NCBI GenBank assembly: GCA_934271235.1
Contig: CAKQQT010000017.1
Location: 1 to 64,000, forward strand
Direction: 5' to 3'
Origin: an uncultured Clostridia bacterium
GTDB taxonomy: Bacteria > Bacillota > Clostridia > Peptostreptococcales > Anaerovoracaceae
Length of the DNA stretch: 64,000 nt
The notes under the pieces: model-generated
Database searches by the model: none
What the model saw: the letters and a program-made list of their open reading frames with translations, nothing else
What the model was told of the DNA's origin: nothing
Translations under genes and position numbers: made by a program
In this document: positions 2,706-23,189 of the stretch, in pieces
Position numbering within the stretch: position 1 is the stretch's first letter
How the letters are laid out: each line of letters opens with the position of its first letter

Positions 2706-3656
2706 ATGGATATCAAACAACTGAATTACTTTGTGCAGATCGCGCAGTGCGGCAGCTATTCCCTGGCTTCTCAGAAGCTATATATCTCACAGCCCGCGCT
2801 GAGCAAGGTCATAAAGAATATGGAAGACGAGATGGGCTTTTCTCTGTTCTATACGTATCAGAGAAGACAAAAGCTTACCGACGCCGGACAGCTTTTTTAT
2901 GAAAAGGCGGTAAAACTGCTGGAAAGCTACAATGATCTGATCCAGACGACGTATGTGGAGGAGTGCATCAACAAAGGCCACTTGAAGATCGGCCTGTCGG
3001 TCGCTGCCGGCGGCGCGCTGTTTTCCCACATCATCCCGGGGTTCACAAAGTTATATCCGCAGATCACTTTTTCCATTTTGGAAAGGGAGACGAACATTTT
3101 AAAAGAGGAACTGCTGAAAAAAAATCTGGATGCCGCGTATATCGACCTGCATCACTTTAACAGCGCAGAAGATCAGGAAAATTTCGAAGTGTATGAACTG
3201 TTCCAGACAGAAAACGTACTGGTAGCCTCGGTTGATAATCCGATCACACAGCGAAAGGATATCAGCTATGAGGAACTGGAGGGGCAGAAACTGATCCTTT
3301 ACAACGGAGGAAAGGAAGTTTCCAGCCAGATCGAACTGGAATTGAAGAAGATGGGGATTTCGCCGAACGTCGCGTTCGTTTCAACACAGTGGAATTTCAT
3401 CCTCGATGCGGTCGCCAACAATATGGGCGTTGTCGTATGTCCATATTATATTTATTCGAAACATAAGAGTCCGCAGCTTACCTATGTTCGGATCAAACCG
3501 GATGTAGCGTATCGGCAGATCGGCATCATCACGAAGAAAAACGAATATAAGACCAGAGCTTGTATCTGTTTTTTGGACTATGCCTCCGAACTGTCGAACT
3601 ATGAAGGCATCACCGAGCGGCTTCGCGTGCCGTATGAAGAAAGCGTCCGGAAATAA
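2706..3656 (+). CDS. LysR-family transcriptional regulator
   Basis: A 316-residue LTTR of standard length. The N-terminal winged helix-turn-helix (about residues 1-60, with SYSLASQKLYISQPALSKVI) is typical. The C-terminal two-lobed effector domain begins near residue 90 (LKIGLSVAAGGALFSHIIPGF). It sits divergently to abfD and directly upstream of the alcohol dehydrogenase and the TIM/VOC cluster, so it probably senses the imported substrate or an intermediate and activates these units (inference). The effector is unknown. The start ATG at 2706 has a weak GGTGAAAG site just ahead. Confidence 0.92.
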   Translation: MDIKQLNYFVQIAQCGSYSLASQKLYISQPALSKVIKNMEDEMGFSLFYTYQRRQKLTDAGQLFYEKAVKLLESYNDLIQTTYVEECINKGHLKIGLSVAAGGALFSHIIPGFTKLYPQITFSILERETNILKEELLKKNLDAAYIDLHHFNSAEDQENFEVYELFQTENVLVASVDNPITQRKDISYEELEGQKLILYNGGKEVSSQIELELKKMGISPNVAFVSTQWNFILDAVANNMGVVVCPYYIYSKHKSPQLTYVRIKPDVAYRQIGIITKKNEYKTRACICFLDYASELSNYEGITERLRVPYEESVRK

Positions 3657-3714
3657 CGCGGAACGAAAATGTTTTCCTCCTTTCAGCTAGAAAAAAAGAA
3701 ACGGAGAAAGCAGG

Positions 3715-4806
3715 ATGAAAGGAAAAATTGTTTATTTTGAAGGCAGCAAGAAATTCGGATTTGCCGAACATGATCTGCCGGAAGTAGAACCTGGCGCGGT
3801 CCTGGTCAAAGTATTATGTACCAATATCTGCGGATCAGATGTAAAGAACTGGTTAGGGACCTCTTCTGTCGGTATCGGCGCGAAGCCGACCTGTCAGGGA
3901 CATGAATTCGTCGGAGAGATCTACCAGCTCGGTGAAGGCGTGGAAACGGACAGCATGGGACAGCCGGTAAAAGTCGGCGACCGTATCGTTGCGCCGTATT
4001 ACATTACCTGCGGAGTCTGCGATGCCTGCAAAGCAGGCCGTTACGATCTTTGCGAAAACGCCTATATCCATTTGGGGACCGAGCCGTCGCAGTGGCCGTA
4101 CTTCGGCGGAACTTTCGCGTCGCATTATTACATTTATCCGGATCAAAAATTCTACAAGGTACCGGATGATGTTCCGAACGAACTGGCAGTCGGCGTGAAC
4201 TGTGCTTTTTCACAGGTTTACTACGGTCTGGAACGGGCGGATCTGAAAGCCGGCGAAACGCTGCTGATCCAGGGAGCCGGCGGTCTGGGCGTCTATGCGG
4301 CTGCGATCGCCAAAGAAAAGGGCGCACGTGTCATTATGATCGACGGCGTCAAGGAACGTCTGGAATTTGCGAAGCGGTTCGGCGTGGATGAGATCATCGA
4401 TCTGAGCGAAGTCAAAGAACTGGCAGACAGAGAACAGCGCGTAAAGGAACTCACGAACGGCAAGGGCGTCAATGTGGCGTTGGAAGTAACCGGATTCGCA
4501 GGCGCATTTGAGGAAGGCATCCGCCATCTGGCTGTCATGGGACGTTACATCGTCATCGGCATCAATTCGACAGCCGTCAGCGCAACGATCTCCCCGGGCT
4601 ATATCACAAGAAAGGCCTTAACGGTTTACGGCGTTGTGCGTTATCTTCCGGAATATCTGCATAAGTCGCTGCTGTTCCTGGAAAAGTATCAGCACAAATA
4701 TCCGTTTAACGAATTCTCACAGAGAACGTTCGATTTAAGTGAGATCGGCGAAGCACTGCAGCTTTCGGCGGATAAAAAAATAACCAGAGCGATCATCAAG
4801 CCTTAA
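3715..4806 (+). CDS. Zinc-dependent alcohol dehydrogenase (MDR family)
   Basis: A 363-residue medium-chain dehydrogenase. The catalytic zinc region has Cys in NICGSD and the GHEFVGEI motif. The structural zinc lobe CGVCDACKAGRYDLC is complete, and the Rossmann segment GAGGLGVYAAAIAKEKGA binds NAD(P). Such enzymes oxidise secondary alcohols or polyols to ketones. It follows lysR by 58 nt and ends at a clear terminator, so lysR-adh is a separate unit from the TIM/VOC genes downstream. The likely role is oxidation of a hydroxyl group on the imported compound; the substrate cannot be read from the sequence. Confidence 0.9.
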   Translation: MKGKIVYFEGSKKFGFAEHDLPEVEPGAVLVKVLCTNICGSDVKNWLGTSSVGIGAKPTCQGHEFVGEIYQLGEGVETDSMGQPVKVGDRIVAPYYITCGVCDACKAGRYDLCENAYIHLGTEPSQWPYFGGTFASHYYIYPDQKFYKVPDDVPNELAVGVNCAFSQVYYGLERADLKAGETLLIQGAGGLGVYAAAIAKEKGARVIMIDGVKERLEFAKRFGVDEIIDLSEVKELADREQRVKELTNGKGVNVALEVTGFAGAFEEGIRHLAVMGRYIVIGINSTAVSATISPGYITRKALTVYGVVRYLPEYLHKSLLFLEKYQHKYPFNEFSQRTFDLSEIGEALQLSADKKITRAIIKP

Positions 4807-4838
4807 AGGATCCTCAAAAAAACATATATGACAGAAAC

Positions 4839-4881
4839 TGCGGGCAGTCTTACCGTTCGGTACGGGCTGCCTGCTTTTTTT
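4839..4881 (+). terminator. Rho-independent terminator after alcohol dehydrogenase
   Basis: A compound hairpin with outer GGCAG/CTGCC pairing and inner TACCG-TT-CGGTA pairing, followed by a run of seven T. Confidence 0.8.
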
Positions 4882-4944
4882 GCGCGCTGCCCGGAGCATG
4901 CGTTTCAATAACCGCAAGGAATACCTATATCCAACAAATAAGAA

Positions 4945-4974: not shown

Positions 4975-5015
4975 AAACTTATAAAACTGGAACGAAACAA
5001 AAGGAGAGTAGAACC

Positions 5016-5864
5016 ATGGCAAAGATCAAGTTCGGCGTTTGCGAATTTGGATTCCCATATTGGGGACCGATGGCCATTCAAATGGCGCATGAAGCGGGCT
5101 ATACCGGCATGCAGCTTGCTGACGGCGGTGGATCACAATATTCCTATCCGCTGAATAATAAGTGGGTGCAGGACAGCTATCTGGAGAACGCGGCAAAGTA
5201 TGACATCACGCTGCAGTCCATTCATCTATACACCCTTGTCCGTCAGGGCTTTATCCGGAGCAGCCTGCAGACTGCAGACGGCAAAGAAGGAATGGAAAGC
5301 ATCCGTAAAGGCATCATCGCGGCATCGGAAATGAAGATCCCGACCGTGATGATCGAAGGTATGCGTATGTACGGAGCAGCACAGCACAGACATGTTTTTG
5401 AAATGTACCAATACGCAGTAGAAGTCGCGGAAGCCTATGGCGTACAGATCGCAATGGAAACCGACATCACGATGGAGGAACATTTTAAATTCCTCGACGC
5501 CTTTGACGGTAAACTGAAACTTTGCTTTGATACGCATAACCCGGTCATGTACGGAACCGGATTCCCGCCGGATATGATCCGTGCGCTCGGCAAAGAACGC
5601 ATCGATCATTTCCATATGAAAGAATCGCAGCCGGATGCGGAAGGCTTTGTAACCAAAGAAACCGCGCCGATCGTTCTGCTGGGAGAAGGCGGAACTTATT
5701 TCAAAGAATCCGTACAGGCGATCAAGGACATCGGCTATGAAGGCTGGATCATTTCGGAAACCTTCTATACCCGTCCGAACCTGAACCAAAACGGAGACGA
5801 CTACATCTCCGCGGCAAGAAAAGATGTGGAGACACTGGAAGCAGCATTTGCAGATTATCAGTAG
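5016..5864 (+). CDS. Sugar phosphate isomerase/epimerase-like TIM barrel (TIM1)
   Basis: A 282-residue protein of the xylose-isomerase-like TIM barrel superfamily (AP_endonuc_2; relatives include IolE, IolI and 3-dehydroshikimate dehydratases). The four usual metal ligands are visible: Glu in IAMETD, Asp in LCFDTHNP, His in DHFHMKE and Glu in ISETFY. Members isomerise, epimerise or dehydrate keto sugars and cyclic ketones. It is one of four paralogues in the island and opens with the family signature KFGVCEFGFPYWG. First gene of a four-gene unit with lplA, VOC1 and the SDR. Exact reaction unknown; dehydration or isomerisation of a keto-polyol is an inference. Confidence 0.85.
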   Translation: MAKIKFGVCEFGFPYWGPMAIQMAHEAGYTGMQLADGGGSQYSYPLNNKWVQDSYLENAAKYDITLQSIHLYTLVRQGFIRSSLQTADGKEGMESIRKGIIAASEMKIPTVMIEGMRMYGAAQHRHVFEMYQYAVEVAEAYGVQIAMETDITMEEHFKFLDAFDGKLKLCFDTHNPVMYGTGFPPDMIRALGKERIDHFHMKESQPDAEGFVTKETAPIVLLGEGGTYFKESVQAIKDIGYEGWIISETFYTRPNLNQNGDDYISAARKDVETLEAAFADYQ

Positions 5865-5885: not shown

Positions 5886-6866
5886 ATGATCTACTTGGAG
5901 TCGAAGAGTCACGACCCATACTTCAATTTGGCATTGGAAGAGTACGTGTTCGAAAAACTGGATCAGAACGAAGAATACTTTATGCTCTGGCAGAATGACA
6001 ACACCATTGTTGTCGGAAAATATCAGAACACCGCGCAGGAGATCAATCAGGCGTTTGTAGATGCAAATCATATTCGCGTTGCCCGCAGGCTTTCGGGAGG
6101 CGGTGCTGTCTATCACGACAAAGGGAATCTCAACTTTACCTTTATCATCAGCGAAGAAGGCCACGGCCTGCAGTTCCGGCAGTTTATCCAGCCGGTCATC
6201 CGGGCGCTTGCGAAACTCGGGATCCGAGCGGAGTTTACCGGCCGGAACGATATCACGATCGACGGAAAAAAAATATCCGGCAATTCGCAGTATGTGAAGC
6301 GCGGCCGGATCATGCACCACGGATGCATCCTGGTCGACAGCAACTTGACCAACGTATCGGAGGCGCTGCGGCCGAAAGAGGCAAAATTCGAATCCAAGAG
6401 CGCGAAGTCTGTCGCGTCGCGCGTTACGACGATCAACGCCTGCAGTCCGAACGAGATCACCGTCGAGGTCTTCAAAAAAGCACTTGCCGATGAAGTGCTG
6501 CAGGGAAGCGGTGCACAGGAATATGTGCTTTCGGAAGCAGAACTCGCGGAGATCCAAAAGCTCACCGATGAAAAGTACAATACCTGGGAATGGAATTACG
6601 GAAAGTCCGGCAATTACAATTACGAGAAGAGTCAGCGCTATGACTTCGGAACCGTAGAGATCTCTGCCACCGTGCGGGAAGGCATTTTGCAGGAAGTCCG
6701 CATCCACGGAGATTTCTTCGGAAACGGCGAGATCACGGATCTGGAAACAGCGCTGCAGGGCGAAGCTTTAGATGAAAAACTCGGCAGCAGGATCGCAGCG
6801 AAGATCGATGTGGATCACTACATCCACGGTATGACCGCGGCGGATCTGCAGAAACAGTTAAGATAA
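5886..6866 (+). CDS. lplA: Lipoate-protein ligase A
   Basis: A 326-residue ligase that activates free lipoate with ATP and attaches it to a lysine of lipoyl domains. The family signature RRLSGGGAVYHD is present near residues 65-76, KISGNSQY lies near 125-132, and the C-terminal accessory domain begins near residue 240. It starts 21 nt after TIM1 behind a GGGAGGTGA site. Its presence is explained by the stand-alone lipoyl protein at 16467, which needs lipoylation. This suggests that the TIM/VOC unit and the E1/E2 unit work in one pathway. Confidence 0.93.
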   Translation: MIYLESKSHDPYFNLALEEYVFEKLDQNEEYFMLWQNDNTIVVGKYQNTAQEINQAFVDANHIRVARRLSGGGAVYHDKGNLNFTFIISEEGHGLQFRQFIQPVIRALAKLGIRAEFTGRNDITIDGKKISGNSQYVKRGRIMHHGCILVDSNLTNVSEALRPKEAKFESKSAKSVASRVTTINACSPNEITVEVFKKALADEVLQGSGAQEYVLSEAELAEIQKLTDEKYNTWEWNYGKSGNYNYEKSQRYDFGTVEISATVREGILQEVRIHGDFFGNGEITDLETALQGEALDEKLGSRIAAKIDVDHYIHGMTAADLQKQLR

Positions 6867-6879: not shown

Positions 6880-7404
6880 ATGGAAAAAATCAAACCGGAA
6901 CTGGTCTTTCAGGTGGGATGCATCGTGGAAGACGTTGAAAAAACGGTAGAAAACCTGAAACATTATTTTGCGCTGGATGAGGCGTCGATCATTTTCAAGA
7001 ACACAAAACAGCGCGCGCAGGAAGGCACCGAGATCCAGAACTTTTACAACGGAGAGCCGCGTGAATTCTATATCAAAACTGCCAGACTGGACTTTGGCGG
7101 CATTGATCTGGAATATATCGAACCGCTCAACAAGGACGGCGGGGATCCATATTCCGACTGGTTGAAAAAACACGGTCCCGGCTTACATCATATCAACCTC
7201 AAGGTGGATGACCGTCCGGCCTTGGACGAAGAAATGAAAAAGCAGGGAAGACCGCAGCATATCTATACGGAGATCGGTGGTCTGGGCTTGGAAACCTATG
7301 ATTTCCGCGACCTGTTCGGATTTATCTGTGAACTTGGCGATATGGTCGTCGGCCCAATGGCGGAAAGCTACAACAAAGCACATGAAAAAAATTCAAAGAA
7401 ATAG
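6880..7404 (+). CDS. VOC-fold metalloprotein (VOC1)
   Basis: A 174-residue protein of the vicinal oxygen chelate superfamily (glyoxalase I, methylmalonyl-CoA epimerase and dioxygenase relatives). The expected four metal positions read Gln (VFQVGC), Glu (DLEYIEPL), His (LHHINLKV) and Glu (FICELGD), an intact set. The segment before the His, with P-Y-S-D-W-L and HGPGLHH, resembles methylmalonyl-CoA epimerases. It follows lplA by 13 nt. One of four VOC paralogues in the island. Such proteins catalyse epimerisation, isomerisation or lyase reactions through enolates; the substrate is unknown. Confidence 0.82.
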   Translation: MEKIKPELVFQVGCIVEDVEKTVENLKHYFALDEASIIFKNTKQRAQEGTEIQNFYNGEPREFYIKTARLDFGGIDLEYIEPLNKDGGDPYSDWLKKHGPGLHHINLKVDDRPALDEEMKKQGRPQHIYTEIGGLGLETYDFRDLFGFICELGDMVVGPMAESYNKAHEKNSKK

Positions 7405-7437
7405 AAGAAAATGAGAGAGCGAAAGGAGAATCATTTC

Positions 7438-8229
7438 ATGGGAAGATTAGAAAATAAAGTCGCGATCGTAACAGGCGGCGCAAAGGGCATCGGTTATGTG
7501 ACCTGTAACACATTCAGCAGAGAAGGCGCATCCGTTGTCATCGTAGACATGGATAAGGAAGCAGCAGAAAAAGCTGCACAGGAGATCAACGACAAGGGCG
7601 GCAAAGCGCTGGCAGTCGCTGCAAATCTGACGGTAGCAGAAGACAGAGAAGCCATCTTTGAGAAAGCGGTTGAAAAATTCGGCAAAGTGGATATCCTGAT
7701 CAACAACGCAGGTTGGGGCTGCAAAACACCATTCCTGGAGATGACAGAAGAGCCGTTTGAACGATCCATCAACCTGAATATGAAAGCTACATACTTCATG
7801 ATCCAGCTGGCATGTAAACAGATGATCAAGCAGGGGACCGGCGGAAGGATCGTCAGCACGTCTTCTACCGCTGCTTTTCAAGGCGAGAAGAACGGAAGCA
7901 TTTATTCCGGAACGAAGTCCGCGATCATCGCGTTCTCAAGAGCGATCGCGCTGGAAGTCGGCCAGTATGGCATCAATGTCAACTGTGTGGCGCCGGGATT
8001 CACCAGAACGAACAATAACGGACATATTCCGGGCAGCATCGATGAAAACTTCCTGCAGATCACACCGACCAAGAGGATCAATGAAGCACAGGACATTGCG
8101 AACGGTTATCTGTTCCTCGTTTCCGACGAAGCGCGTCAGATCACGGCACAGGTACTGCCGATCGACGGCGGATATTCCGGAACTCGTGCAATGCAGGCAA
8201 GTCAGGACACAAGCATGCAGGTAAAATAA
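7438..8229 (+). CDS. Short-chain dehydrogenase/reductase
   Basis: A 263-residue classical SDR with the cofactor motif TGGAKGIG (residues 11-18), the NNAG motif, the catalytic YSGTK (YxxxK) with an upstream Ser, and the C-terminal LPIDGGYSGT. I start it at 7438, where AAAGGAG lies 7 nt upstream, rather than at an earlier in-frame ATG. It catalyses NAD(P)-dependent interconversion of a hydroxyl and a carbonyl. Last gene of the TIM1-lplA-VOC1 unit, closed by a terminator at 8238. Confidence 0.92.
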   Translation: MGRLENKVAIVTGGAKGIGYVTCNTFSREGASVVIVDMDKEAAEKAAQEINDKGGKALAVAANLTVAEDREAIFEKAVEKFGKVDILINNAGWGCKTPFLEMTEEPFERSINLNMKATYFMIQLACKQMIKQGTGGRIVSTSSTAAFQGEKNGSIYSGTKSAIIAFSRAIALEVGQYGINVNCVAPGFTRTNNNGHIPGSIDENFLQITPTKRINEAQDIANGYLFLVSDEARQITAQVLPIDGGYSGTRAMQASQDTSMQVK

Positions 8230-8314: not shown

Positions 8315-9145
8315 ATGAAATACGGAATATGTGAATGGTCACTGCCGGTATCCGGAACGCTTGCGATCCGGATGGCCGGAGAGATCGGCTATGATGGGAT
8401 GCAGCTGGGAGAAGCAGGCGGCAGGAAAATGGGATATCCGCTGAATGACCGCCGTGTACAGGAGCTGTATCTGCAGATCGCGCAGGAAAGCGGCATCCGG
8501 CTTCATTCCCTGAACCTCGGCGCGCTTTTGGCGGAGGGGACACTGAATTATGCACCGGAGGCCACGCAGGGAACTCACGCGAGAGAAAGCCTGCGAAAAG
8601 GATTTGAAGCTTGCCGGGCTTTAGGGATCGGGACGGTCGTGATCACGGTAAATTCGCAGGATGAAGAGCAGACTTCCAACGTCTTGTCCCATTTGAACTA
8701 TGCGGCGCATCTGGCCTCTGAGAACGGCGTGGAGATCGCGATGGAATCGGCGCAGGAACTGCCGGTCATCCTCGGGATCTTGGAATGTATGCAGGGGAAG
8801 ATCAAAATCTGCATGGATACACTGAACCCGCTGCGCTTCGGAAGCGGTGATCCACAGGAACAGATCTGCATTTTCGGCAAAGAGCGCATCAGTCATTTTC
8901 ATCTGAAGGACAGCAAAAAAGAGCTTTTCCGGATCGGGGAGCGCGGCTGTACCTTACTGGGAACCGGTGACGCAGGCTTTGACGAATCCGTAAAACTGAT
9001 CCGCAAGATGCGGTATGAAGGCTGGGTGATCACCGAGAACTACTATTATCTGCCGCCGCTGTACGACAGTAGCATTCCGTTTGCGGAGCTGGCGAGGAAA
9101 GACCTGCGGACGATGCGAAACAGTTTCGCGGAGACAGAAGTATAA
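8315..9145 (+). CDS. Sugar phosphate isomerase/epimerase-like TIM barrel (TIM2)
   Basis: A 276-residue paralogue of TIM1 beginning with KYGICEWSLPVSG. The four metal ligands are kept: Glu (IAMESAQ), Asp (CMDTLNP), His (SHFHLKD) and Glu (ITENYY). Its loops differ from TIM1 and TIM4 (CTLLGTGDAGF in place of the longer insert), so it probably acts on a related but different intermediate. It lies alone between a terminator upstream and the VOC2 promoter downstream, with a modest TTGGAGAAG site before the start. Confidence 0.83.
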   Translation: MKYGICEWSLPVSGTLAIRMAGEIGYDGMQLGEAGGRKMGYPLNDRRVQELYLQIAQESGIRLHSLNLGALLAEGTLNYAPEATQGTHARESLRKGFEACRALGIGTVVITVNSQDEEQTSNVLSHLNYAAHLASENGVEIAMESAQELPVILGILECMQGKIKICMDTLNPLRFGSGDPQEQICIFGKERISHFHLKDSKKELFRIGERGCTLLGTGDAGFDESVKLIRKMRYEGWVITENYYYLPPLYDSSIPFAELARKDLRTMRNSFAETEV

Positions 9146-9208: not shown

Positions 9209-9261
9209 TTTAATATAAGAGTTGTTAATTATGCTACAAAGTTTAGAGGAGGTAGATGAGA

Positions 9262-9738
9262 ATGGCAGAAAACAAAGAGTGGATGAAACAGATCTTTCAG
9301 ATCGTCATGGTGGTTGAAAACGTAGATCAGACGATCGAAAACTGGAAACGTATGGTAGAGTTTGACGAGGCCTCCATTGAAGTCGCGGAAACCTCTCCGG
9401 CCATGAAGTGCAGATATAAAGGGGAAGAGATCAGCTGCCCGACACGCTATGCGACCTTTGATCTGGGCGGCGTGCAGATGAAAGTCGTCGAACCGCTCAA
9501 CAAGCAGGCAGGGAATCCGTATTCCGACGCACTGATCCAGAGCGGTCCGGGGATCCATCACATCGGTTTCTGCGCAGAAGACTATGACACTCTGCTTCAA
9601 AAATATAAGGATGGCGGAAAGAATCCGGTATATGAAGAGATCGACGGGGAAAACCATTACTTGCTGTATGACTTTTCTGAGAAGACCGGCTTTCGGGTCG
9701 CACCGTGGAACCACATGGAAGGCCCGTGCGCGCGTTGA
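9262..9738 (+). CDS. Degenerate VOC-fold protein (VOC2)
   Basis: A 158-residue VOC-family protein. Of the four metal positions intact in its three paralogues, two are replaced. The Glu of DLEYIEPL in VOC1 is Lys here (MKVVEPL), and the last Glu (FICELG in VOC1) is Ala (FRVAPW). Gln (IFQIVM) and His (IHHIGF) remain. It is therefore unlikely to bind metal in the usual way and may be a structural or binding partner. The start at 9262 is chosen because GAGGAGG (9246-9252) is 9 nt away; an in-frame ATG at 9256 would be too close. It is followed by the equally degenerate TIM3. Confidence 0.8.
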   Translation: MAENKEWMKQIFQIVMVVENVDQTIENWKRMVEFDEASIEVAETSPAMKCRYKGEEISCPTRYATFDLGGVQMKVVEPLNKQAGNPYSDALIQSGPGIHHIGFCAEDYDTLLQKYKDGGKNPVYEEIDGENHYLLYDFSEKTGFRVAPWNHMEGPCAR

Positions 9739-9755: not shown

Positions 9756-10664
9756 ATGACACGATATAAATTTGGAGCCTGTGAATACAATTTCCCGATG
9801 TGGGGGTCCCTCGCGCTGGAGATGGCAAAGGAGGCAGGCTATGACGGGATCGAGATCACAGACGGCGGCGGGTATCTGCAGCCGCATCCGATGAATAAAG
9901 GGCTGTTTGTGGAATGCGAACGCTTCACACCGGGTCTGGCGCGTTTGGACGCGTATCCGCTGACTGACAAGATCATCCAGGATGACTATCTGAACGCAAA
10001 GGCCAAAACCGGGATCGAGATCACCGGGGTGCACCTGTATTTTTTGAACCATCAGGGCTTTGTGAACCATGAAAACAGTACCGTGCAGGGCCAGGAGGCG
10101 CTGACCACGATCAAAAACGCGATCGCCGCGGCTGCGCAGATGGGCATTCCGCTCGTTACGATCCCGACGAAGGGCATGTTCGGAACTGCGAAGCATCTTT
10201 ATGCTTATCAAAAATTAGAATACGCCGTACAGACTGCGGAAGCATACGGTATCCGCATTGCGAATTCTTTCGATACCGGACTGCAGAGAGAACTCGAGAT
10301 CATCGAAAAACTCGGCGGCAGACTGAAAGCCGACCTGCATACCATCGATCCGGTCGTTTTCGCGCAGGAAGCGCCGCAGGATATGATCCGAAAGCTCGGT
10401 AAAGAGAAGATCGAACAGCTGAAGATCATGGACCGCAAAAAAGACCGCGAAGGCTTCATCACCATGGAAACAACGGAGGCGGTATCTTTGGGAAGCGGCG
10501 ACGCGGACTGGAAGGCCTGTGCCGAAGCGGCAAAAGAAATCGGATTTGAAGGGTACGTGATCAGCGATACGCCGTTCAACAGCACGGCTTTAAATCGTAA
10601 CGGTGAAGATTATATCTCGCTGGCAAGAAAAGATCTGGAAACCTTGAAAAAGGCATTTGCGTAA
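9756..10664 (+). CDS. Degenerate TIM-barrel paralogue (TIM3), probable pseudoenzyme
   Basis: A 302-residue member of the same TIM-barrel group (KFGACEYNFPMWG at the start). Aligned to TIM1 and TIM4, every metal ligand has changed: Glu of AMETD to Ser (ANSFD), Asp of FDTHNP to His (LHTIDP), His of HFHMKE to Lys (QLKIMD) and Glu of ISETF to Asp (ISDTP). The remaining fold is well kept, with APQDMIRKLGKEKI and GEDYISLARKDLETL intact, so it is a maintained gene rather than a decaying one. It may pair with TIM4, which starts 13 nt downstream, or with VOC2. The start at 9756 follows AGGTGAGG. Confidence 0.82.
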   Translation: MTRYKFGACEYNFPMWGSLALEMAKEAGYDGIEITDGGGYLQPHPMNKGLFVECERFTPGLARLDAYPLTDKIIQDDYLNAKAKTGIEITGVHLYFLNHQGFVNHENSTVQGQEALTTIKNAIAAAAQMGIPLVTIPTKGMFGTAKHLYAYQKLEYAVQTAEAYGIRIANSFDTGLQRELEIIEKLGGRLKADLHTIDPVVFAQEAPQDMIRKLGKEKIEQLKIMDRKKDREGFITMETTEAVSLGSGDADWKACAEAAKEIGFEGYVISDTPFNSTALNRNGEDYISLARKDLETLKKAFA

Positions 10665-11517: not shown

Positions 11518-11541
11518 TATTTTTAAGAAAGGATGAGCAAC

Positions 11542-15434: not shown

Positions 15435-16424
15435 ATGGAATTGAAAAAAATGACCTATATGCAGGCGATCCGGCTTGCAATGGAAGAAGAAATGGCCAAA
15501 AATGAAAAAGTCATCATCGTCGGACAGGACGTCGGCATCCTTGGAGGCGCTTACGGCGTGACCGGTGACCTTTATCATAAATTCGGCCCGGACAGAGTCA
15601 TCGATGCGCCGCTTGCCGAAAACGCGATCGTCGGCTTTGGTATCGGCGCTGCCATGACAGGCTGGAGACCGATCGTGGAAATTATGAAGATGGACTTCAG
15701 TATGGTCTGCATCGACCCGATCTGCAACCATCTGGCAAAATACAGATATATGTCCGGCGGACAGATCGAATGTATGCCGGCTGTCGTTCGGACCACCATC
15801 GGCGGAGGCACGCGTTCCGGCCCACATCACAGCCAGTCGATCTACGGACTGTTTGCTTGCTTCCCTGGTCTGAAAGTGGTCGTCGGTTCCACGCCGGATG
15901 ATATCTACGGTTTATTGAAGTCCGCGATCCGCGACGATGACCCGGTCTTGGTATGCGAGGAAGCCGCAGCGCTCAGAATGAAGGGCGAAGTCCATGTGGA
16001 TCCGGATTATGTCGTTCCGATCGGCAAAGCAAAAGTCGTATCCGAAGGTGATGACATCACCATCGTCGGCATCGGCACCGCGATCCTCAAAGCGACCAAA
16101 GCGTTGGATCAGCTGGAAGCAGCCGGTATCCACGCCAACCTGATCGATTTAAGATCCTTAAGACCACTGGATCTGGAATCCACGATCGCGTCCGCGAAGA
16201 AGACTGGCAAAGTGTTAGTCATCGATGACTTTACCGAAACCTTCGGCATCACCGGAGAAATTTCTCATCAGGTGACCGAAAACTGCTTTAACGAACTGAA
16301 GATGCCGGTACAGCGACTGACCCTTCCGGATACCATCATCCCGGCTGCAGGCCCGCTGGAAGACTGGGTATTCCTGTCGGCAGACAAGATCGCTGCAAAA
16401 GCAAAAGAAATCGTTGGAAAATAA
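15435..16424 (+). CDS. Thiamine-diphosphate dehydrogenase E1 beta subunit (AcoB/PdhB-like)
   Basis: A 329-residue E1 beta subunit. The N-terminal VGQDVGILGGAYGVT and DAPLAENAIVGFGIGAA segments carry the conserved Glu that activates thiamine diphosphate. The middle GGGTRSGPHHSQS and the C-terminal transketolase-like domain (LIDLRSLRPLD, LVIDDFTETFG) are complete. It starts 17 nt after E1 alpha behind AAAGGAGG. It forms the alpha2-beta2 E1 with the preceding gene. Confidence 0.9.
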   Translation: MELKKMTYMQAIRLAMEEEMAKNEKVIIVGQDVGILGGAYGVTGDLYHKFGPDRVIDAPLAENAIVGFGIGAAMTGWRPIVEIMKMDFSMVCIDPICNHLAKYRYMSGGQIECMPAVVRTTIGGGTRSGPHHSQSIYGLFACFPGLKVVVGSTPDDIYGLLKSAIRDDDPVLVCEEAAALRMKGEVHVDPDYVVPIGKAKVVSEGDDITIVGIGTAILKATKALDQLEAAGIHANLIDLRSLRPLDLESTIASAKKTGKVLVIDDFTETFGITGEISHQVTENCFNELKMPVQRLTLPDTIIPAAGPLEDWVFLSADKIAAKAKEIVGK

Positions 16425-16749: not shown

Positions 16750-17451
16750 ATGAAAGAAATCGCAGAAGTTATGAAATACAAGGGCATGCTGAAGTCCATC
16801 GGAAAGAGAATGGAGATCAGCGGCGCTTATCCGATGTCCTATCAGGGCATTTATGTTGACGTTACCGATCTGCTGGAATTCCGTAAGAAGATCAATGCAG
16901 AAAGAAACGTGAAACTGACCGTCAATGACTATATCGTAAAGGCTGCCAGCATTTCGCTGCAGAGAGTTCCGATCATGAATTCCGCCTTCAACGAAGATAT
17001 GACGGAGATCCAGTTATACAAGTCATGTAATATCAGTGTTATGACGGCATCCGAAAAAGGTCTGGTTGCTCCGGTGCTGAAAGAAACACAGGACAAGAGT
17101 ATTTTCCAGCTTTCGGAGGAAATGAAAGTACTGATCGAAAAGGCTAACCAAGGCAAACTGACGATGGAGGACTATTCGGACGGTACCTTTGGCATTACGA
17201 ATATCGGTAAACTGAATTCTTTTGATTCGGTTCCGCTGCCGATGCCGCCGGAACCTGCTATTATGACAGCCTGCACCGCAAAGAAGATGCCGGTTGTTCT
17301 GGATGACGGCAAAGATACGATCGCAGTTCGTATGATGATGAAACTTGTTATCGGTGGTGATCATCGTATTCTTCAGGGCGTTCCGCTGGCCCAGTTTATC
17401 AACAGCATGAAAGAATTGCTGGAAAGTCCGGAACAACTGATCGCCGAATAG
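16750..17451 (+). CDS. E2 acyltransferase catalytic core without lipoyl or binding domains
   Basis: A 233-residue 2-oxoacid dehydrogenase acyltransferase catalytic domain. It starts directly at the core (KSIGKRMEISG, then TVNDYIVKAASISL). DGTFGITNIGKL and PPEPAIMTAC are typical. The active-site motif, usually DHRxxDG, is DHRILQG here: the catalytic His is kept but Asp is Gln. Both the lipoyl domain (now the preceding gene) and the peripheral subunit-binding domain, which holds E1 and E3, are missing. It follows the lipoyl gene by 19 nt. The likely reaction is acyl transfer from lipoamide to CoA. Confidence 0.87.
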   Translation: MKEIAEVMKYKGMLKSIGKRMEISGAYPMSYQGIYVDVTDLLEFRKKINAERNVKLTVNDYIVKAASISLQRVPIMNSAFNEDMTEIQLYKSCNISVMTASEKGLVAPVLKETQDKSIFQLSEEMKVLIEKANQGKLTMEDYSDGTFGITNIGKLNSFDSVPLPMPPEPAIMTACTAKKMPVVLDDGKDTIAVRMMMKLVIGGDHRILQGVPLAQFINSMKELLESPEQLIAE

Positions 17452-17462: not shown

Positions 17463-17500
17463 AAAGACTCTCGAAACAAGTGTTTTGGGAGTCTTTTTTT
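17463..17500 (+). terminator. Rho-independent terminator after the E1/E2 unit
   Basis: AAAGACTC/GAGTCTTT outer stem with partly paired loop and a T-run. The ribosome binding site of the next gene (GGAGG) follows at once. Confidence 0.8.
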
Positions 17501-17509
17501 GGAGGTTTT

Positions 17510-18295
17510 ATGAAATTATATGTATTAGATTTAGGGCGGATCATTATGGAAAACGACAACCCGGTCACCAAAGAGGACGGCACGCGGGCCCAGAAGCCGC
17601 AGATTCCGATCCACGCATTTTTGATCGATTCTCCGGCCGGATACATCCTCTTTGACGCGGGCTGTGACCCGCTGGGCATGAAGGGCGCATGGCCGAAAGA
17701 AATGTGCGCTAATCCGTTTGTTTACGACGAGAACCAAACATTGGAGAAGCAATTGGATACAATTTATGTTAAAATGGAAGATGTGCGGTACATCGTGCTT
17801 TCGCATCTGCACCTAGATCACGCGGGGGCTGTACACCTGTTCCCGAACGCAGAAGTCTTCGTAAACAAAACCGAACTGGAAGCAGTCTATGCGGGACACA
17901 AAGACGGCAGCATTGATATTTTCCACCAGAAGTCAGACTTTGAGAACTGGAACCGCGCAAATGTCAACTGGAAGCCGGTCAGCGGCGATCAGAAGCATTT
18001 CCTTTGCAATGACATCGACCTGTTGGACCTCGGCAAAGGCCACTCCTTTGGCATGCTCGCGTTAGCAGTGCACTTAAAAGAAGGATGTAAGATGCTGGTA
18101 GCCGACGCGGCTTATTCCGCGGTGCATTATGGTCCGCCGGCCCAGATGGCAGGCGTCTGCTGCGACGAGGAAGGATACTTCGCGGCGCTGGAAAAGATCC
18201 GAGCCTACGCAAAGGAACAGGACGCAGCAGTCCTGTTCGGCCACGATATGCAGCAGTTCGAAAGTCTGAAAAAAATCCCGGATTACTATGAGTAA
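17510..18295 (+). CDS. AiiA-like metallo-beta-lactamase-fold lactonase
   Basis: A 261-residue MBL protein of the N-acyl-homoserine-lactonase-like group. The metal motif SHLHLDHAG (HxHxDH) is intact, with a bridging Asp in VADAAY and further His residues in GKGHSFG and LFGHDMQ. Relatives hydrolyse lactones, including gamma-butyrolactones. The start at 17510 follows GGAGG by 5 nt. In this island it is more likely to open a lactone intermediate than to quench quorum sensing (inference), and it is one of two putative lactonases here. Confidence 0.8.
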   Translation: MKLYVLDLGRIIMENDNPVTKEDGTRAQKPQIPIHAFLIDSPAGYILFDAGCDPLGMKGAWPKEMCANPFVYDENQTLEKQLDTIYVKMEDVRYIVLSHLHLDHAGAVHLFPNAEVFVNKTELEAVYAGHKDGSIDIFHQKSDFENWNRANVNWKPVSGDQKHFLCNDIDLLDLGKGHSFGMLALAVHLKEGCKMLVADAAYSAVHYGPPAQMAGVCCDEEGYFAALEKIRAYAKEQDAAVLFGHDMQQFESLKKIPDYYE

Positions 18296-18409: not shown

Positions 18410-18967
18410 ATGAGTGAGATGAAAAAGACTTCTATGGATTTGATCTTTCAGGTTTGCGTTTGTGTCTATGACATGGATGAAACACTGGAGAATTGGAAGA
18501 AGCTTTTTGATATCGATGAAAGCAGTATTAAGATCAAATACACAGAAGATTATTTAAAAAATGATGATTGGAACGGTTTGAACTATAACGAAAAACCGTG
18601 CGAATGGTTCAACAAGTTTTGCAGATTCGACCTTGGCGGAGTTGATTTTGAAATCATTGAACCACTGCAAAAAGAACCGGGAAATCCGTATTCCGACTTC
18701 CTGCATGAACACGGTCAAGGGATCCATCATATCGGTGTCAAGCTTGGAGACTTGAATCTTTTCAAAGAAAATATGAAGGAGCTTGGATATCCGAGAATGA
18801 ATTACGCGGAGATGGGACCGGTTCTTTCGGATGGATCAAGAAAAGGCTGCTTTTTCTACGACCTGAGAGATCGGTTGGGATGCATTCTGGAATGCTGCAG
18901 CATGGTAGTCGGACCGTTGGCAGATGATCCGCGTTCCGGAAATCCGAAGGACTTTGTAAACAACTAA
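18410..18967 (+). CDS. VOC-fold metalloprotein (VOC4)
   Basis: A 185-residue VOC protein with intact metal positions: Gln (IFQVCVCV), Glu (DFEIIEPL), His (IHHIGVKL) and Glu (GCILECCS). It is closest to VOC1 in the EPL and NPYSDFL segments but has an insert near residues 45-60. It lies alone between the MBL gene and the TRAP transporter, preceded by a GGGAGGTG site and a 114-nt AT-rich gap that could hold a promoter. Confidence 0.8.
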   Translation: MSEMKKTSMDLIFQVCVCVYDMDETLENWKKLFDIDESSIKIKYTEDYLKNDDWNGLNYNEKPCEWFNKFCRFDLGGVDFEIIEPLQKEPGNPYSDFLHEHGQGIHHIGVKLGDLNLFKENMKELGYPRMNYAEMGPVLSDGSRKGCFFYDLRDRLGCILECCSMVVGPLADDPRSGNPKDFVNN

Positions 18968-19038: not shown

Positions 19039-20088
19039 ATGAAGAAGAAAATTTTAGCCGTTTTATTGGCGATGGTCATGATTTTTTCTTTTGTTGGATG
19101 CGGAAGCAACGACAATGGTGCAGACAGCGATAAGGTTTACGATTTAAGCTTTTCTTTGCTGAACGGTGAGAGCAACTTCCAGTCTGTTGCTTGGACAGAT
19201 TGGGCGAATGCAGTAAATGAAGCGTCTAACGGACGTCTGAACATTAAAATGTATTACGACAGCACTTTGGTAGATTCCTCTGCAGAATATCAGCAGCTGC
19301 TTGCAGGTGTAGCTGATATTGTTGATGCACATCGTTATGCATCCGATGGATTTGTAATCTCTGAAAACTGGAAATGCATCACCTCCGGTATTCCGGCAGA
19401 TGCAGTTGTAGATTTTTCATATAGACTTTACAATGAAATTCCGGCGATCGCAGATGAATACAAAGACGTAAAAGTTCTGGCACAGGCATGGAACGGCGGA
19501 ACCACTTATCAGCTGCTGACAGTCAGCAAGCCGGTACATTCTCCTGCAGACATGAAGGGTATGACGATCTGGTGTGAAGCAGACTGGAACGGCTTTATCA
19601 AAGCTTGCGGAGCGACTCCGGTAAATGTACCGTTTAACGAAGTATACTCCGGCTTATCCAAGAACATGTATGACGGCATTATGATCGCAGAAGAAACCTT
19701 GCAGTCCTGCAGCTTTGCAGAAGTCTGCAAATACTCCAATCAGCTGAATTTATCTTATGCATCCGAGCCGGGACATCTGATGAACCTGGACTCCTGGAAC
19801 GCTTTACCGGAAGATCTGCAGAAGATCATTGACGATCATGCATCTATGGTTGAAGAAGAACAGATGGCATCTTTTGTGAAGACAACGGAAGAAGCATTCA
19901 AATGGGCACAGGAAACCTACGGCGTAGAACGTGTGGAACTGACCGATGAAGAGGCAGCGGTATTCCTTGAAACAGTAAGAGCGGCGAACATGGAAAAGGC
20001 AAAGGAACTTGATGCCAAAGGACTTCCGGGAACAGAAATCGTAGAGTCCTTAGCGAAGTGGACGGAAGAGTGGAACAGCAACAAGTAA
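19039..20088 (+). CDS. TRAP transporter solute-binding lipoprotein (DctP family)
   Basis: A 349-residue extracytoplasmic binding protein. The N-terminus is a lipoprotein signal with lipobox FVGC near residue 22. The mature part has DctP features: DLSFSLLNGES, the LADSSAEYQQL-type strand (VDSSAEYQQLLAG), WCEADWNGFIKACGATPV and PFNEVYSGLSKNMYDG. DctP proteins usually bind a carboxylate through an Arg near the Trp-rich segment; the usual R of the MK-hR motif reads MKGMTIWCEA here, so the ligand may not be a simple carboxylate. It heads the dctPQM-lactonase unit. Confidence 0.92.
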   Translation: MKKKILAVLLAMVMIFSFVGCGSNDNGADSDKVYDLSFSLLNGESNFQSVAWTDWANAVNEASNGRLNIKMYYDSTLVDSSAEYQQLLAGVADIVDAHRYASDGFVISENWKCITSGIPADAVVDFSYRLYNEIPAIADEYKDVKVLAQAWNGGTTYQLLTVSKPVHSPADMKGMTIWCEADWNGFIKACGATPVNVPFNEVYSGLSKNMYDGIMIAEETLQSCSFAEVCKYSNQLNLSYASEPGHLMNLDSWNALPEDLQKIIDDHASMVEEEQMASFVKTTEEAFKWAQETYGVERVELTDEEAAVFLETVRAANMEKAKELDAKGLPGTEIVESLAKWTEEWNSNK

Positions 20089-20213: not shown

Positions 20214-20873
20214 ATGTATAATATAAAATATGATCGCTGGAAAATAAGGATCAGTAATGTGATTGGTGATGGTTCGGCTATCTTTGCCGGGATATTCTTA
20301 TGTGCAGCGACCTTCTGTATGTTTGTAAATATGATGACCAGAACCTTCTTGGATTACAATTTCCAGTGGATTTACGACTTCTGCGGATTATGTGCGGCAG
20401 GAATCGCATCATATTCCATTCCGTATACAACTTTTATCCGCGGACATTCCAATATGGATATTATAATCAGCAAATGCAAACCTCGCACGAGAGGTATGAG
20501 TGAGGGAATATCCGGAATCATTACACTTGCAGTTATGGTATTTACCATTTTTGCAGTTACCAAAATCGCAATTATGAAAACGCAAACAATGGAACTTACG
20601 ACATCGGCACATCTGCCAACGTTTGTTTTTAGATGGTTATATATTATCGGACTGGTGCTGACCGTGTTTGCAGCAGCACTGGAAATGATCGATATGTTCA
20701 GAGTTGCTTCCGGCAAGAATGTACTTACCACACAGGAAGAACTTGACGCGTACGAAAACGGAACTCTTACAGGCACGCATATCTTTGAAAGCGATACAGA
20801 GAAAGAACTGGAAGCTTTCGAGAAACAACTGGAAGAGAGTGAAGAAGAAAAAGAAGAAAAGGAGGGAAAATAA
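20214..20873 (+). CDS. TRAP transporter small permease (DctQ family)
   Basis: A 219-residue membrane protein with four predicted transmembrane helices, roughly residues 22-42, 53-75, 98-120 and 135-160. It couples DctP to the large permease. The last 50 or so residues are unusual for DctQ: a long charged tail, very rich in Glu and Lys, likely a coiled coil in the cytoplasm. It ends immediately before the DctM start codon. AGGAGCAG precedes the ATG. Confidence 0.88.
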   Translation: MYNIKYDRWKIRISNVIGDGSAIFAGIFLCAATFCMFVNMMTRTFLDYNFQWIYDFCGLCAAGIASYSIPYTTFIRGHSNMDIIISKCKPRTRGMSEGISGIITLAVMVFTIFAVTKIAIMKTQTMELTTSAHLPTFVFRWLYIIGLVLTVFAAALEMIDMFRVASGKNVLTTQEELDAYENGTLTGTHIFESDTEKELEAFEKQLEESEEEKEEKEGK

Positions 20874-22187
20874 ATGTCATCCGTAACGATTGGTATTTTA
20901 GCCCTTGCGTTATTCTTTATCTTAGCATTAATGGGCGTAAAAGTATGCTACAGCATGCTGGTAAGTTCGATATTCGGCTTGATTTTATTAAACAGTTTTA
21001 AAGGAGCCGTCTCGGTTGTCGGTACAGCCTTGTTCTCCATGATATCCAGCTATGACTATGCGGTACTTCCGATGTTTGTCCTGATGGCTTCCATCATAAC
21101 GGAGACCGGCATGGGTACAGACTTATATGCTTCCTGCAGAACCTGGCTCGGACATATGCACGGCGGACTTTGCATGGCGACCATTATCGCATGTGCGATC
21201 TTTGCAGCGGTAACCGCATTCCCGTGGGCATCCATTATGGCAGTCGGCGCGATCGCACTGCCGGAAATGCAGAGATATCACTACAATAAGAGAATGGCAA
21301 CCGGTTCCGTTGCAGCAGGATCGGAATTAGGCGATTTGATCCCGCCGTCGTCGATGTTTATCACATACGGTATGATTTCCGGGACTTCCATCGGTTCTCT
21401 GCTGATCGCAGGCATTATTCCGGGAATCGTGATGGCCGCATTATACTGTGTTGTAATTTTTATCTGGTGCAAGAAAGATCCGGAAGCCGGACCGAGAGGA
21501 CCAAAAACGACGGCCAGAGAGAAGCTTCTCGCAGTCAAGAACTGTTGGGCAATCTTAGTGGTGATCATCTTTGCAATGGGCGGCATTTTCCTTGGTGTCT
21601 GCACACCGACCGAAGCAGGAGCGTTAGGCGCTGCACTGGCATTTATCATCGCATGTGCCCAGAGAAGATTGAACTTAAAAGTTTTCAAAAATATCTTGAC
21701 CAGTACCGCAAAACTGACCGGTATGATTTATATGATCATTTCCTGTGCGATGGTTATGAAGCAGATGATCGCACAGTCAGGATTGCCGGGCGCATTGTCA
21801 GGCGTCGTTGCATCCATGTCGTTGTCGAAGTACTTATTGATTGCTTTGATCTTGATCGTTTACGTAATTTTAGGTATGTTCGTAGAAACGATGTCCATGA
21901 TTCTTTTGACAGTTGGAATTTTCCTTCCGATTGTCGAATCGGTAGGCTTTAGTGCAGTATGGTTTGGCGTGATTCTGACCCGTATGGGAGATATCGGCGG
22001 TCTGACTCCTCCGATGGGTATGACCTGCTTCTTCTTGAAGGGCATGGTTAAAGACATGGAACTGTCCGAGGTGTTCAAAGGCGTTGTGCCATTCCTTGCG
22101 GCGGATGCATTGGGATTGGTTTTACTGGTCGCATTCCCGCAGCTCTGTGAATGGCTTCCGACTATGTTAGGCTATTCCCTGATGTAA
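20874..22187 (+). CDS. TRAP transporter large permease (DctM family)
   Basis: A 437-residue integral membrane protein with about 11-13 hydrophobic helices. DctM signatures are visible: GSELGDLIPPSSMFITYG, CTPTEAGALGAA and the late RMGDIGGLTPPMGM loop, which form the transport core. It starts directly after the dctQ stop codon, with the GGAGG site in the dctQ tail. It drives sodium- or proton-coupled import of the DctP ligand. Confidence 0.93.
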   Translation: MSSVTIGILALALFFILALMGVKVCYSMLVSSIFGLILLNSFKGAVSVVGTALFSMISSYDYAVLPMFVLMASIITETGMGTDLYASCRTWLGHMHGGLCMATIIACAIFAAVTAFPWASIMAVGAIALPEMQRYHYNKRMATGSVAAGSELGDLIPPSSMFITYGMISGTSIGSLLIAGIIPGIVMAALYCVVIFIWCKKDPEAGPRGPKTTAREKLLAVKNCWAILVVIIFAMGGIFLGVCTPTEAGALGAALAFIIACAQRRLNLKVFKNILTSTAKLTGMIYMIISCAMVMKQMIAQSGLPGALSGVVASMSLSKYLLIALILIVYVILGMFVETMSMILLTVGIFLPIVESVGFSAVWFGVILTRMGDIGGLTPPMGMTCFFLKGMVKDMELSEVFKGVVPFLAADALGLVLLVAFPQLCEWLPTMLGYSLM

Positions 22188-22226
22188 AACTAAAAATGAC
22201 AATTATGTAAAGGAGATGGAATCAAA

Positions 22227-23189
22227 ATGAGCAAAATGGTACAGACCGTAACCGGCCCGATTTCAACAGAACAATTAGGATCAACCTTGATGCACGAACA
22301 TATCTACAGTTCCAGCATGGGTATTGCGATACATTATCCGCAGTTTTACAAAAAGGACATCGATGAATTCGTATGTTCGGAATTAAAGGACCTCAAAAAA
22401 GAAGGCTACAGCACGGTTGTTGATGCAACGCCGGTCGGCTTGGGACGTGATGTCAGAGCACTGAAGCGTGTCAGCGAGGCTACCGGCATGCAGATCATCG
22501 CGACTGCCGGATGGTGGGGTATGGAACCTCCGTACCTTGGCTTATCCACAGAGGAACAGTGGGCACAGTGTTTCATTGACGATATTACAAAGGGATGTGA
22601 CGGCACGGACATTAAAGCAGGATTCCTGAAGGCATCTATGGACGATGTTCCGACCGAATGGACGAAAAAGATCCATCATGCAGTGGGGATCGCCAGCCAG
22701 GAAACCGGCGCAAACATCTTCTTGCATACCTATTGCCCGAAAGAAACTCCGCGGCATCAGTTAGCGCTGTTAAAAGAAGTCGGTACAGATATGAACAAGG
22801 TTGTCGTAGATCATCTTCCGGAAACAACCGACCTCGACTTCATCAAATGGATTTATGATCAGGGCGCATGGCTGGGGATCGACCGATTCCCAATCATTCT
22901 GTTCCCAGGTGAATACGCAGTTCCGACCGAATCCCGCTTCAAATTCATCAAAGCAATCTTGGATGCAGGCATGGGCGATCGTGTGCTGATCTCCCACGAC
23001 TACGCACTGACGTCAACACTGTTCGACAACCAGCCGGAAGATGTGCAGGCATTCGTGGCAGAAGAGATTCCGTACCGCCTGCTTTTCTTCAAGAAATATG
23101 CAATTCCGAAGTTCGCGGAAATGGGCGTGGATCCGGAATACTTATGGAGACTCACCTACGAGAATCCGAAGAAGTTCTTCGAAGGCTAA
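22227..23189 (+). CDS. Phosphotriesterase-family hydrolase (probable lactonase)
   Basis: A 320-residue amidohydrolase-superfamily protein. The binuclear metal site is visible: HxH in LMHEHIY (residues 23-25), carboxylated-Lys candidate in IKAGFLKAS, His in IFLHTYCP, His in VVDHLPETT and Asp in LISHDYAL. The family (PTE-like lactonases, Php) hydrolyses lactones and esters. It is co-transcribed with the TRAP transporter, 39 nt after dctM, and closed by a strong terminator. Opening of an imported lactone is the simplest reading; phosphotriesterase activity proper is less likely. Confidence 0.85.
   Translation: MSKMVQTVTGPISTEQLGSTLMHEHIYSSSMGIAIHYPQFYKKDIDEFVCSELKDLKKEGYSTVVDATPVGLGRDVRALKRVSEATGMQIIATAGWWGMEPPYLGLSTEEQWAQCFIDDITKGCDGTDIKAGFLKASMDDVPTEWTKKIHHAVGIASQETGANIFLHTYCPKETPRHQLALLKEVGTDMNKVVVDHLPETTDLDFIKWIYDQGAWLGIDRFPIILFPGEYAVPTESRFKFIKAILDAGMGDRVLISHDYALTSTLFDNQPEDVQAFVAEEIPYRLLFFKKYAIPKFAEMGVDPEYLWRLTYENPKKFFEG

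Follow-up and report, generated by a model that had tools for sequence, protein, structure and literature searches.

The DNA analysed here, called the window throughout, is a stretch of 64,000 nt from an uncultured Clostridia bacterium (contig CAKQQT010000017.1), and the system in question is an island of 23 genes spanning ~20 kb, all on the plus strand, from a LysR regulator to a PTE-family hydrolase (Table 1; gene families were placed by Pfam). The island combines four TIM barrels (TIM1-TIM4) and four VOC proteins (VOC1-VOC4) with alcohol dehydrogenases (ADHs), an E1/lipoyl/E2 cleavage unit, the lipoate-protein ligase LplA, lactonase-like hydrolases and a tripartite ATP-independent periplasmic (TRAP) transporter, DctPQM. 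Every gene named in the preliminary description of this DNA was confirmed in place by Pfam, and the inventory was completed by an iron-type alcohol dehydrogenase (Fe-ADH) that had been overlooked. The cluster is real, conserved and rare, and constitutes a putative catabolic system. Beyond the earlier description, its most interesting features are a clade of TIM3 proteins without a metal site and complementary ligand losses in VOC2 and VOC3.

Conservation and distribution of the island

Emergencia timonensis, a gut bacterium, is a named species with isolates. Because 22 of the 23 window genes have relatives (43-79% identity; the exception is Fe-ADH) within a single 46-kb stretch of one E. timonensis contig (74.7-120 kb), the island appears to be more than a chance assembly, and this genome-neighbourhood comparison supports the proposal of a coherent catabolic set. 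Since every TIM and every VOC paralogue finds its separate counterpart there (TIM 50-77%, VOC 55-72%, VOC4 as a fused double copy), the 4+4 set is old, the duplications predating the split of the window lineage and E. timonensis. The first E. timonensis unit, divergent from LysR, reads VOC4-VOC4-VOC1-SDR-TIM1-ADH1-E1 alpha-E1 beta-lipoyl-E2. The second opens with E3, 4-hydroxybutyryl-CoA dehydratase, acyl-CoA dehydrogenase, EtfBA, MBL0, LplA, TIM2 and DctPQM and continues with DctP, PTE, ADH2, TIM3, TIM4, VOC2, VOC3, ADH2, MBL1 and DctP. An E. timonensis that carries the island makes the pathway directly testable.

It could be argued that several independent small operons, each for a different substrate, happen to lie side by side. 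The two separated E. timonensis units with their three DctPs and the intergenic gaps of 71-209 nt at several points of the window island agree with this view, which we nevertheless hold to be highly improbable given the conservation paralogue by paralogue and the single LplA and single E1 set that serve both units. Linkage also argues against it. The longest source contigs (>=5 kb) of protein clusters were compared for exactly equal size, with expectations from jittered sizes; among the matches listed, equal sizes were obtained for TIM3 and TIM4/TIM1 clusters in 8/31 cases (0.05 expected), for VOC4 and TIM4/TIM1 in 5/23 (0.02 expected) and for VOC4 and TIM3 in 2/23 (0.02 expected), which is indirect evidence that TIM3, VOC4 and TIM4/TIM1 are linked. 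Promoter-like sites in the window (23 vs 19.7 +/- 5.0 in shuffles) were not above chance, and terminator-like sites (30 vs 19.7 +/- 5.1) were not used as evidence.

In overlapping genome samples, and at E <= 1e-40 unless stated, TIM profiles matched 3/197 genomes in the family group to which E. timonensis belongs (profile A1; 13/197 at 1e-3), 1/13 of its genus, 2/391 of its class and 2/398 of its phylum, as well as 2/33 genomes of the order of a more distant genome, G319, and 3/32 of the G319 family at 1e-30; 0/13 genomes of the G477 family were matched. Among all genomes sampled, four TIMs were seen in E. timonensis only. When the TIM4/TIM1 profile was used to scan contigs of species genomes, 2 loci out of 25 pattern matches were confirmed, both in E. 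timonensis SN18; the scan required exact short peptides, so that distant relatives such as G319 were missed. In the protein database, 127 homologues of TIM4 (best 120 of 127 listed), 74 of TIM3 and 44 of VOC4 were found at E <= 0.001, and a source is named for few of those listed (Emergencia timonensis, Dysosmobacter, Suipraeoptans or a Firmicutes metagenome-assembled genome). The Dysosmobacter link was set aside: two TIM homologues (P0049, P0057) bear that name and no genome was confirmed. TIM4 matched none of the viral contigs, and plasmid records gave no close TIM4, merely six haloarchaeal records at 24-26% identity.

Six TIM loci were read out of 16 matching genomes, and genes for thiamine diphosphate (ThDP) enzymes adjoin the TIM gene in four of them (not in G029 and G035). 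G319 and G602 carry a TIM (35-38% identical to window TIM1 and TIM2) together with a VOC protein (~50% to E. timonensis VOC4), next to Fe-ADH, TRAP and two-subunit transketolase genes (by Pfam for G319, by BLAST for G602). In G067, two SDRs and a two-subunit transketolase are encoded divergently from a TIM2-like gene. G899 combines TIM, SDR, Gfo/Idh/MocA, a sugar-type ABC importer, E1/E2/E3 and an aldehyde ferredoxin oxidoreductase. The G029 locus has TRAP and two zinc-type ADHs and no ThDP gene.

Metal sites of the TIM and VOC paralogues

All four TIM barrels exceed the Pfam PF01261 cut-off (4/4) and are 32-53% identical to one another. According to the alignment, the E-D-H-E positions at the ends of strands 5-8, the metal ligands of this family, are intact in TIM1, TIM2 and TIM4, in the window and in E. 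timonensis alike. TIM3 reads S-H-Q-K-D at columns 148, 172, 198, 200 and 248; the first four columns are altered in 73/73 TIM3 homologues, and column 248 remains E in 20/73. TIM3 is thus predicted to be a conserved pseudoenzyme beside the active-type TIM4, and its clade poses a sharp question in itself, namely the role of a conserved dead sugar-isomerase barrel. The suggested isomerase or dehydratase function is supported for the barrels with an intact site and not for TIM3. As to more specific assignments, the inosose dehydratase IolE (TIGR04379, equivalog cut-off 290 bits) was not reached by TIM1 (21.3), TIM2 (28.4) or TIM4 (22.0) and not matched at all by TIM3, and the NCBIfam cut-offs for L-ribulose-5-phosphate 3-epimerases (200-317 bits) were not reached by the barrels (<=34.6 bits). 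UlaE was the top Foldseek match of the predicted TIM model.

The VOC proteins belong to the Glyoxalase_4 family and are 27-41% identical. VOC3 scores 23.9 bits, under the 27-bit Pfam cut-off, yet is related to VOC1 and VOC4 at E ~1e-24. Methylmalonyl-CoA epimerase (TIGR03081, cut-off 114.95 bits) was not reached by VOC1 (29.3), VOC4 (24.4) or VOC3 (23.9), and VOC2 gave no match. The ligand set Q/H-E-H-E, presumably that of glyoxalase I, is complete in VOC1 and VOC4. VOC2 lacks the last E and VOC3 the first E of the Q-E-H-E site, in the window and in E. timonensis, so that the losses fall in complementary halves. Q and E of the first half-site are retained in VOC2, H and E of the second in VOC3; if the two proteins formed a domain-swapped dimer in the manner of glyoxalases, it would hold exactly one complete metal site. 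Given the TIM3 pseudoenzyme and the incomplete sites of VOC2 and VOC3, the four TIMs and four VOCs cannot be counted as eight equivalent catalysts.

A VOC profile matched 18/391 genomes of the class at E <= 1e-12. In one of these settings (G314; L056 883-5424), a weak VOC homologue lies near open reading frames with E1-beta-like (transketolase-type) similarity. A 263-aa open reading frame near another weak homologue (L057) looked TIM-like by eye and was discarded, having no Pfam match.

Table 1. Genes of the island and its upstream flank, with window positions and basis of assignment
Feature	Position	Strand	Basis and remarks
LysR regulator	2706..3656	+	PF03466/PF00126; 56% to E. timonensis LysR
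ADH1, Zn alcohol dehydrogenase, HpnZ/threonine-DH-like	3715..4806	+	78% to E. timonensis relative
TIM1, active-type TIM barrel	5016..5864	+	E148 D172 H198/H200 E248
LplA lipoate-protein ligase	5886..6866	+	Pfam; 54% to E. timonensis relative
VOC1	6880..7404	+	Pfam; complete Q-E-H-E site
SDR dehydrogenase	7411..8229	+	Pfam; alternative ATG 7438, preceded by better ribosome-site-like stretch
TIM2, active-type TIM barrel	8315..9145	+	Pfam, metal-site alignment
VOC2	9256..9738	+	Pfam; last ligand E -> A
TIM3, predicted pseudoenzyme TIM barrel	9756..10664	+	ATG 9756 likelier start than opening GTG 9705
TIM4, active-type TIM barrel	10678..11517	+	ATG 10678 likelier start than opening TTG 10657
VOC3	11533..12081	+	Pfam family; second ligand E -> S
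ADH2, Zn-ADH	12121..13182	+	Best NCBIfam match scyllo-inosose 3-dehydrogenase, far under cut-off
Fe-ADH, candidate aldehyde reductase	13197..14324	+	Pfam; 59-60% to Fe-ADHs adjoining TIM/VOC in G319, G602
E1 alpha	14450..15418	+	Pfam, NCBIfam
E1 beta	15435..16424	+	Pfam, NCBIfam
Stand-alone lipoyl domain protein, 89 aa	16461..16730	+	Pfam, NCBIfam
E2, catalytic domain alone	16750..17451	+	Pfam match residues 6-231 of 233
MBL1, AhlS/AttM-like (AiiA-like) lactonase	17480..18295	+	Pfam, NCBIfam
VOC4	18410..18967	+	Pfam; complete Q-E-H-E site; predicted model pLDDT 95.4
DctP solute-binding protein	19039..20088	+	Pfam, alignment; IWCE motif
DctQ	20214..20873	+	Pfam
DctM	20874..22187	+	Pfam
PTE-family hydrolase	22227..23189	+	Pfam; 66% to E. 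timonensis relative
4-Hydroxybutyryl-CoA dehydratase homologue, upstream of island	1055..2548	-	PDB 1u8v, E 4e-282
MBL0, second metallo-hydrolase, upstream of island	181..960	+	44% relative in second E. timonensis unit

Proposed pathway and its alternatives

What was observed is the set of genes, the fact that a second organism conserves it, and the residue changes; from these we infer the reactions and their order throughout. The island may encode a pathway under LysR control by which an uncharged polyhydroxy compound is broken down anaerobically, a reading for and against which we find the balance even; a cyclitol or sugar-like compound is our best, still tentative, guess at the candidate substrate. 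The TRAP transporter would import the compound, and ADH1, ADH2 and/or the SDR would oxidise a hydroxyl to a ketone. TIM1, TIM2 and TIM4 with VOC1 and VOC4 could then move, epimerise or eliminate next to the ketone through enolates, such carbonyl walking ending in a vicinal dione or acyloin, while TIM3, VOC2 and VOC3, whose metal sites are lost or incomplete, would act as partner subunits. The E1/lipoyl/E2 unit, lipoylated by LplA, would split the dione or acyloin, giving acyl-CoA and an aldehyde for reduction by Fe-ADH, and lactone side forms might be opened by the lactonases.

Concerning transport, the K-G-x-x-[IVL]-R carboxylate motif of TRAP solute-binding proteins has W instead of Arg in 4/4 island DctPs (the window and three from E. 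timonensis), which read IWCE where SiaP and 4n6d carry Arg. Arg is retained in five other TRAP solute-binding proteins (a second E. timonensis locus, G029, G319, G602 and Vescimonas). Because Trp stands in the island DctPs where carboxylate binders carry Arg, the exchange suggests an uncharged substrate.

In a rival explanation, a glycoside would be cleaved by oxidation and beta-elimination: a 3-keto glycoside would be made, the TIMs would eliminate the aglycone and hydrate the product, and VOC/E1 would process the keto-sugar. None of the 23 genes is, by Pfam, a Gfo/Idh/MocA or GMC oxidase or a DUF6379 partner, the latter being presumably the small subunit of CGE. According to PMC10628242, an Agrobacterium sugar phosphate isomerase/epimerase-like protein eliminates the aglycone, a second one hydrates the product (a preliminary result), and CGE, an eliminase from the gut, is an Mn enzyme made up of two different subunits. 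A heteromer of this kind would suit a TIM3/TIM4 pair. The same source, however, places metal ligand His132 of the Agrobacterium eliminase on strand 5, where the window TIMs have Glu148, like epimerases. Membership of the beta-eliminases was rejected on this strand-5 ligand (E148 in TIM1/2/4 instead of His), and the glycoside route as a whole seems unlikely to us.

The preliminary description had offered a lactone as one of two options for the substrate, which was not borne out: MBL1 and PTE score far under every NCBIfam equivalog cut-off listed, and intermediates may be what the lactonases act on. A pathway for a lactone or an aldonic acid would use MBL1, PTE and MBL0 for lactone opening and the TIMs and VOCs to arrive at a 2-oxo acid, from which E1 would form a 4-hydroxyacyl-CoA by decarboxylation and the dehydratase, acyl-CoA dehydrogenase and Etf butyryl-CoA. 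Two or three lactonase-like genes, the UlaE match of the TIM model and the highest E1 scores against pyruvate dehydrogenase are in its favour, as is the 4-hydroxybutyryl-CoA dehydratase next to the island in the window and in E. timonensis, where it stands in a run with E3, acyl-CoA dehydrogenase and EtfBA. The window dehydratase, upstream of the island, aligns with PDB 1u8v over residues 8-497 with the C..C and H..C stretches, which we take to be cluster ligands, unchanged, and is by sequence a genuine relative of the enzyme. However, it is transcribed away from the island, and of the four E. timonensis copies the one in the island (81%) is less similar to it than a non-island copy (86%), whose neighbours are a gene of the acetyl-CoA hydrolase/transferase family and a thiolase. 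The dehydratase as terminal enzyme taking 4-hydroxyacyl-CoA towards butyrate is therefore possible but weakly linked, and with DctPs that lack the carboxylate Arg we judge the complete lactone route rather improbable.

Returning to the uncharged-polyol pathway, its cleavage step finds support: E1 alpha and beta, lipoyl and E2 families are all present by Pfam, as had been claimed, and a nearby LplA fits such a unit. The lipoyl domain has its own 89-aa gene and E2 lacks a lipoyl or E3-binding domain, so the usual fusion is absent, and the scores lie under the curated NCBIfam cut-offs for acetoin and 2-oxo-acid dehydrogenases. Because the three PF00676 matches in the E. timonensis genome score 232 bits (island) versus 25 and 22, the island E1 alpha appears to be the sole clear one of its kind there (single-chain E1 types were not searched). 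The E2 active-site motif HxxxD reads HxxxQ in the window; as E. timonensis E2 retains D, no weight was given to this exchange. The window Fe-ADH, and an Fe-ADH or aldehyde oxidoreductase in 3/4 of the ThDP-adjoining TIM loci, would fit aldehyde-yielding acyloin or dione cleavage better than 2-oxo-acid decarboxylation. The earlier suggestion of acyl-CoA plus an aldehyde thus gains from the window Fe-ADH and from the aldehyde ferredoxin oxidoreductase near a distant TIM/E1 cluster, and is retained as a possible product pattern by inference.

Several observations weigh against the uncharged-polyol pathway. The E. timonensis genes lie in two units with ~15 kb of other genes between them (amidohydrolases, a peptidase, a racemase, a PALP enzyme, an antiporter and others). 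The best-scoring solved chains for E1 are pyruvate dehydrogenases, E1 could be a 2-oxo-acid dehydrogenase, and an E3 gene, present in the second E. timonensis unit, was not found in the part of the window genes scanned. Among ThDP neighbours of distant TIM genes, 3/4 are transketolase-type and not E1 (in G602 by BLAST similarity). TIM2-like loci in G029 and G067 have no VOC and, conversely, by BLAST no TIM relative was detected within the stretch read around weaker VOC homologues in 4/4 loci (of 16 genomes besides E. timonensis/G001 and G319), one of which adjoins a Gfo/Idh/MocA gene; VOC and TIM are therefore not invariably partners. Finally, W for R in DctP is no proof of an uncharged ligand. 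The most far-reaching version of the pathway assumes obligate live/dead hetero-oligomers (TIM3+TIM4, VOC2+VOC3) in new carbonyl walking, E1-type ring or chain cleavage and butyrate formation via 4-hydroxybutyryl-CoA dehydratase, i.e., a candidate uncharacterised gut cyclitol-to-butyrate route; we regard this combination as quite improbable.

Surroundings of the island and comparison with known systems

Outside the island, murB and rapZ (window 27453-30218; L007 598-3060) lie ~4-7 kb from it in the window and ~6-8 kb in E. timonensis, possibly marking a shared chromosomal site. V/A-type ATP synthase A and B genes (L059 467-3644; Pfam) occur ~3 kb before the ADH/ThDP/TIM cluster of G319, and relatives 72% and 80% identical (L010 2863-6001) ~9 kb after the E. 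timonensis island. Elsewhere in the window, a Fic/DOC-domain protein (25498-26226) has a sulfatase-family protein on one side and an AI-2E-type transporter on the other, a beta-keto acid cleavage enzyme (BKACE) gene (30307-31134) lies downstream of rapZ, and an AroE-AroK fusion (36858-38138) unites shikimate dehydrogenase domains and shikimate kinase in a single open reading frame. Conjugative-element genes extend over 39856-61389 (by Pfam DUF6017/HTH, ParA, ParB, RadC, MobA/VirD2 relaxase and a type IV secretion coupling protein) and among them is one (44679-51668) whose 2329-aa product has T-Q ester-bond and SpaA prealbumin-like domains. GC content is lower (0.34-0.44) from 52 to 64 kb, where a 1241-aa open reading frame (53487-57212) has no Pfam match at 1e-5.

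No pathway with the gene set of the island was found in the open-licence literature searched, in agreement with the preliminary description, which knew of no named one. The logic is akin to known oxidation/isomerisation and acyloin-cleavage chemistry. Inositol (iol) catabolism is similar in that a cyclic polyol is oxidised, TIM-barrel chemistry (IolE/IolI) follows and the ring is opened, and the best NCBIfam match of ADH2 is IolM, scyllo-inosose 3-dehydrogenase (NF041097), whose cut-off of 450 bits was not reached by ADH2 (157.5) or ADH1 (115.1). IolD is the ThDP enzyme opening the inositol ring, and IolN carries out a TIM step of inositol catabolism. The window, in contrast, has E1/lipoyl/E2 instead of IolD, and no kinase or aldolase among its 23 genes. 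A canonical inositol pathway was rejected: IolE was not matched in the E. timonensis genome (0/1; control 7/14), and no IolE or IolM equivalog cut-off was reached by the window proteins compared. The inositol-to-propionate route, as described by Bui et al. (PMC8355322), uses IolG, IolE, IolD, IolB, IolC and IolJ, a gene set different from that of the window. A 2025 gut review (PMC12482443) describes the myo-inositol-to-butyrate pathway, for which Dysosmobacter welbionis is named, as not fully characterised; identity of the island with that route is not shown.

Acetoin and pyruvate dehydrogenase complexes share the E1 alpha/beta, lipoyl and E2 families with the island, whereas in the window the E2 core and the lipoyl domain are encoded separately, inside a TIM/VOC/TRAP island. 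Compared to ketose 3-epimerase, UlaE and Art22 barrels, the window TIMs are 11-24% identical to the solved chains listed, and the TIM3 clade lacks the site. PDB 5hmq, which we take to be a QuiC-type 3-dehydroshikimate dehydratase, combines a VOC/HPPD-like domain with a PF01261-like barrel and is matched by both TIM and VOC models; it is, however, one fused chain, with 13-14% and 9% identity to them. The OGE/CGE beta-eliminases are likewise TIM barrels that use a metal and act next to a ketone, and CGE is heterodimeric, but PMC10628242 gives OGE a strand-5 His (AtOGE His132), unlike the Glu of TIM1/2/4. Another gut Clostridia, Vescimonas fastidiosa (NZ_AP023416.1), has a run of TRAP, dehydrogenase, MBL, E1/E2/E3 and LplA genes that follows a like logic of transport and cleavage; it differs in that the 13 kb read show no annotated TIM or VOC, and in having an E1 alpha of 34% identity and a solute-binding protein that retains Arg. 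In that genome (pMM35_01, L070) the TRAP-to-LplA run is followed by an AI-2E transporter. Set against these systems, the island would, if our reading is true, represent a kinase-free and aldolase-free fermentation of an uncharged polyol by gut anaerobes, with E1/lipoyl/E2 cleavage after TIM/VOC isomerisations.

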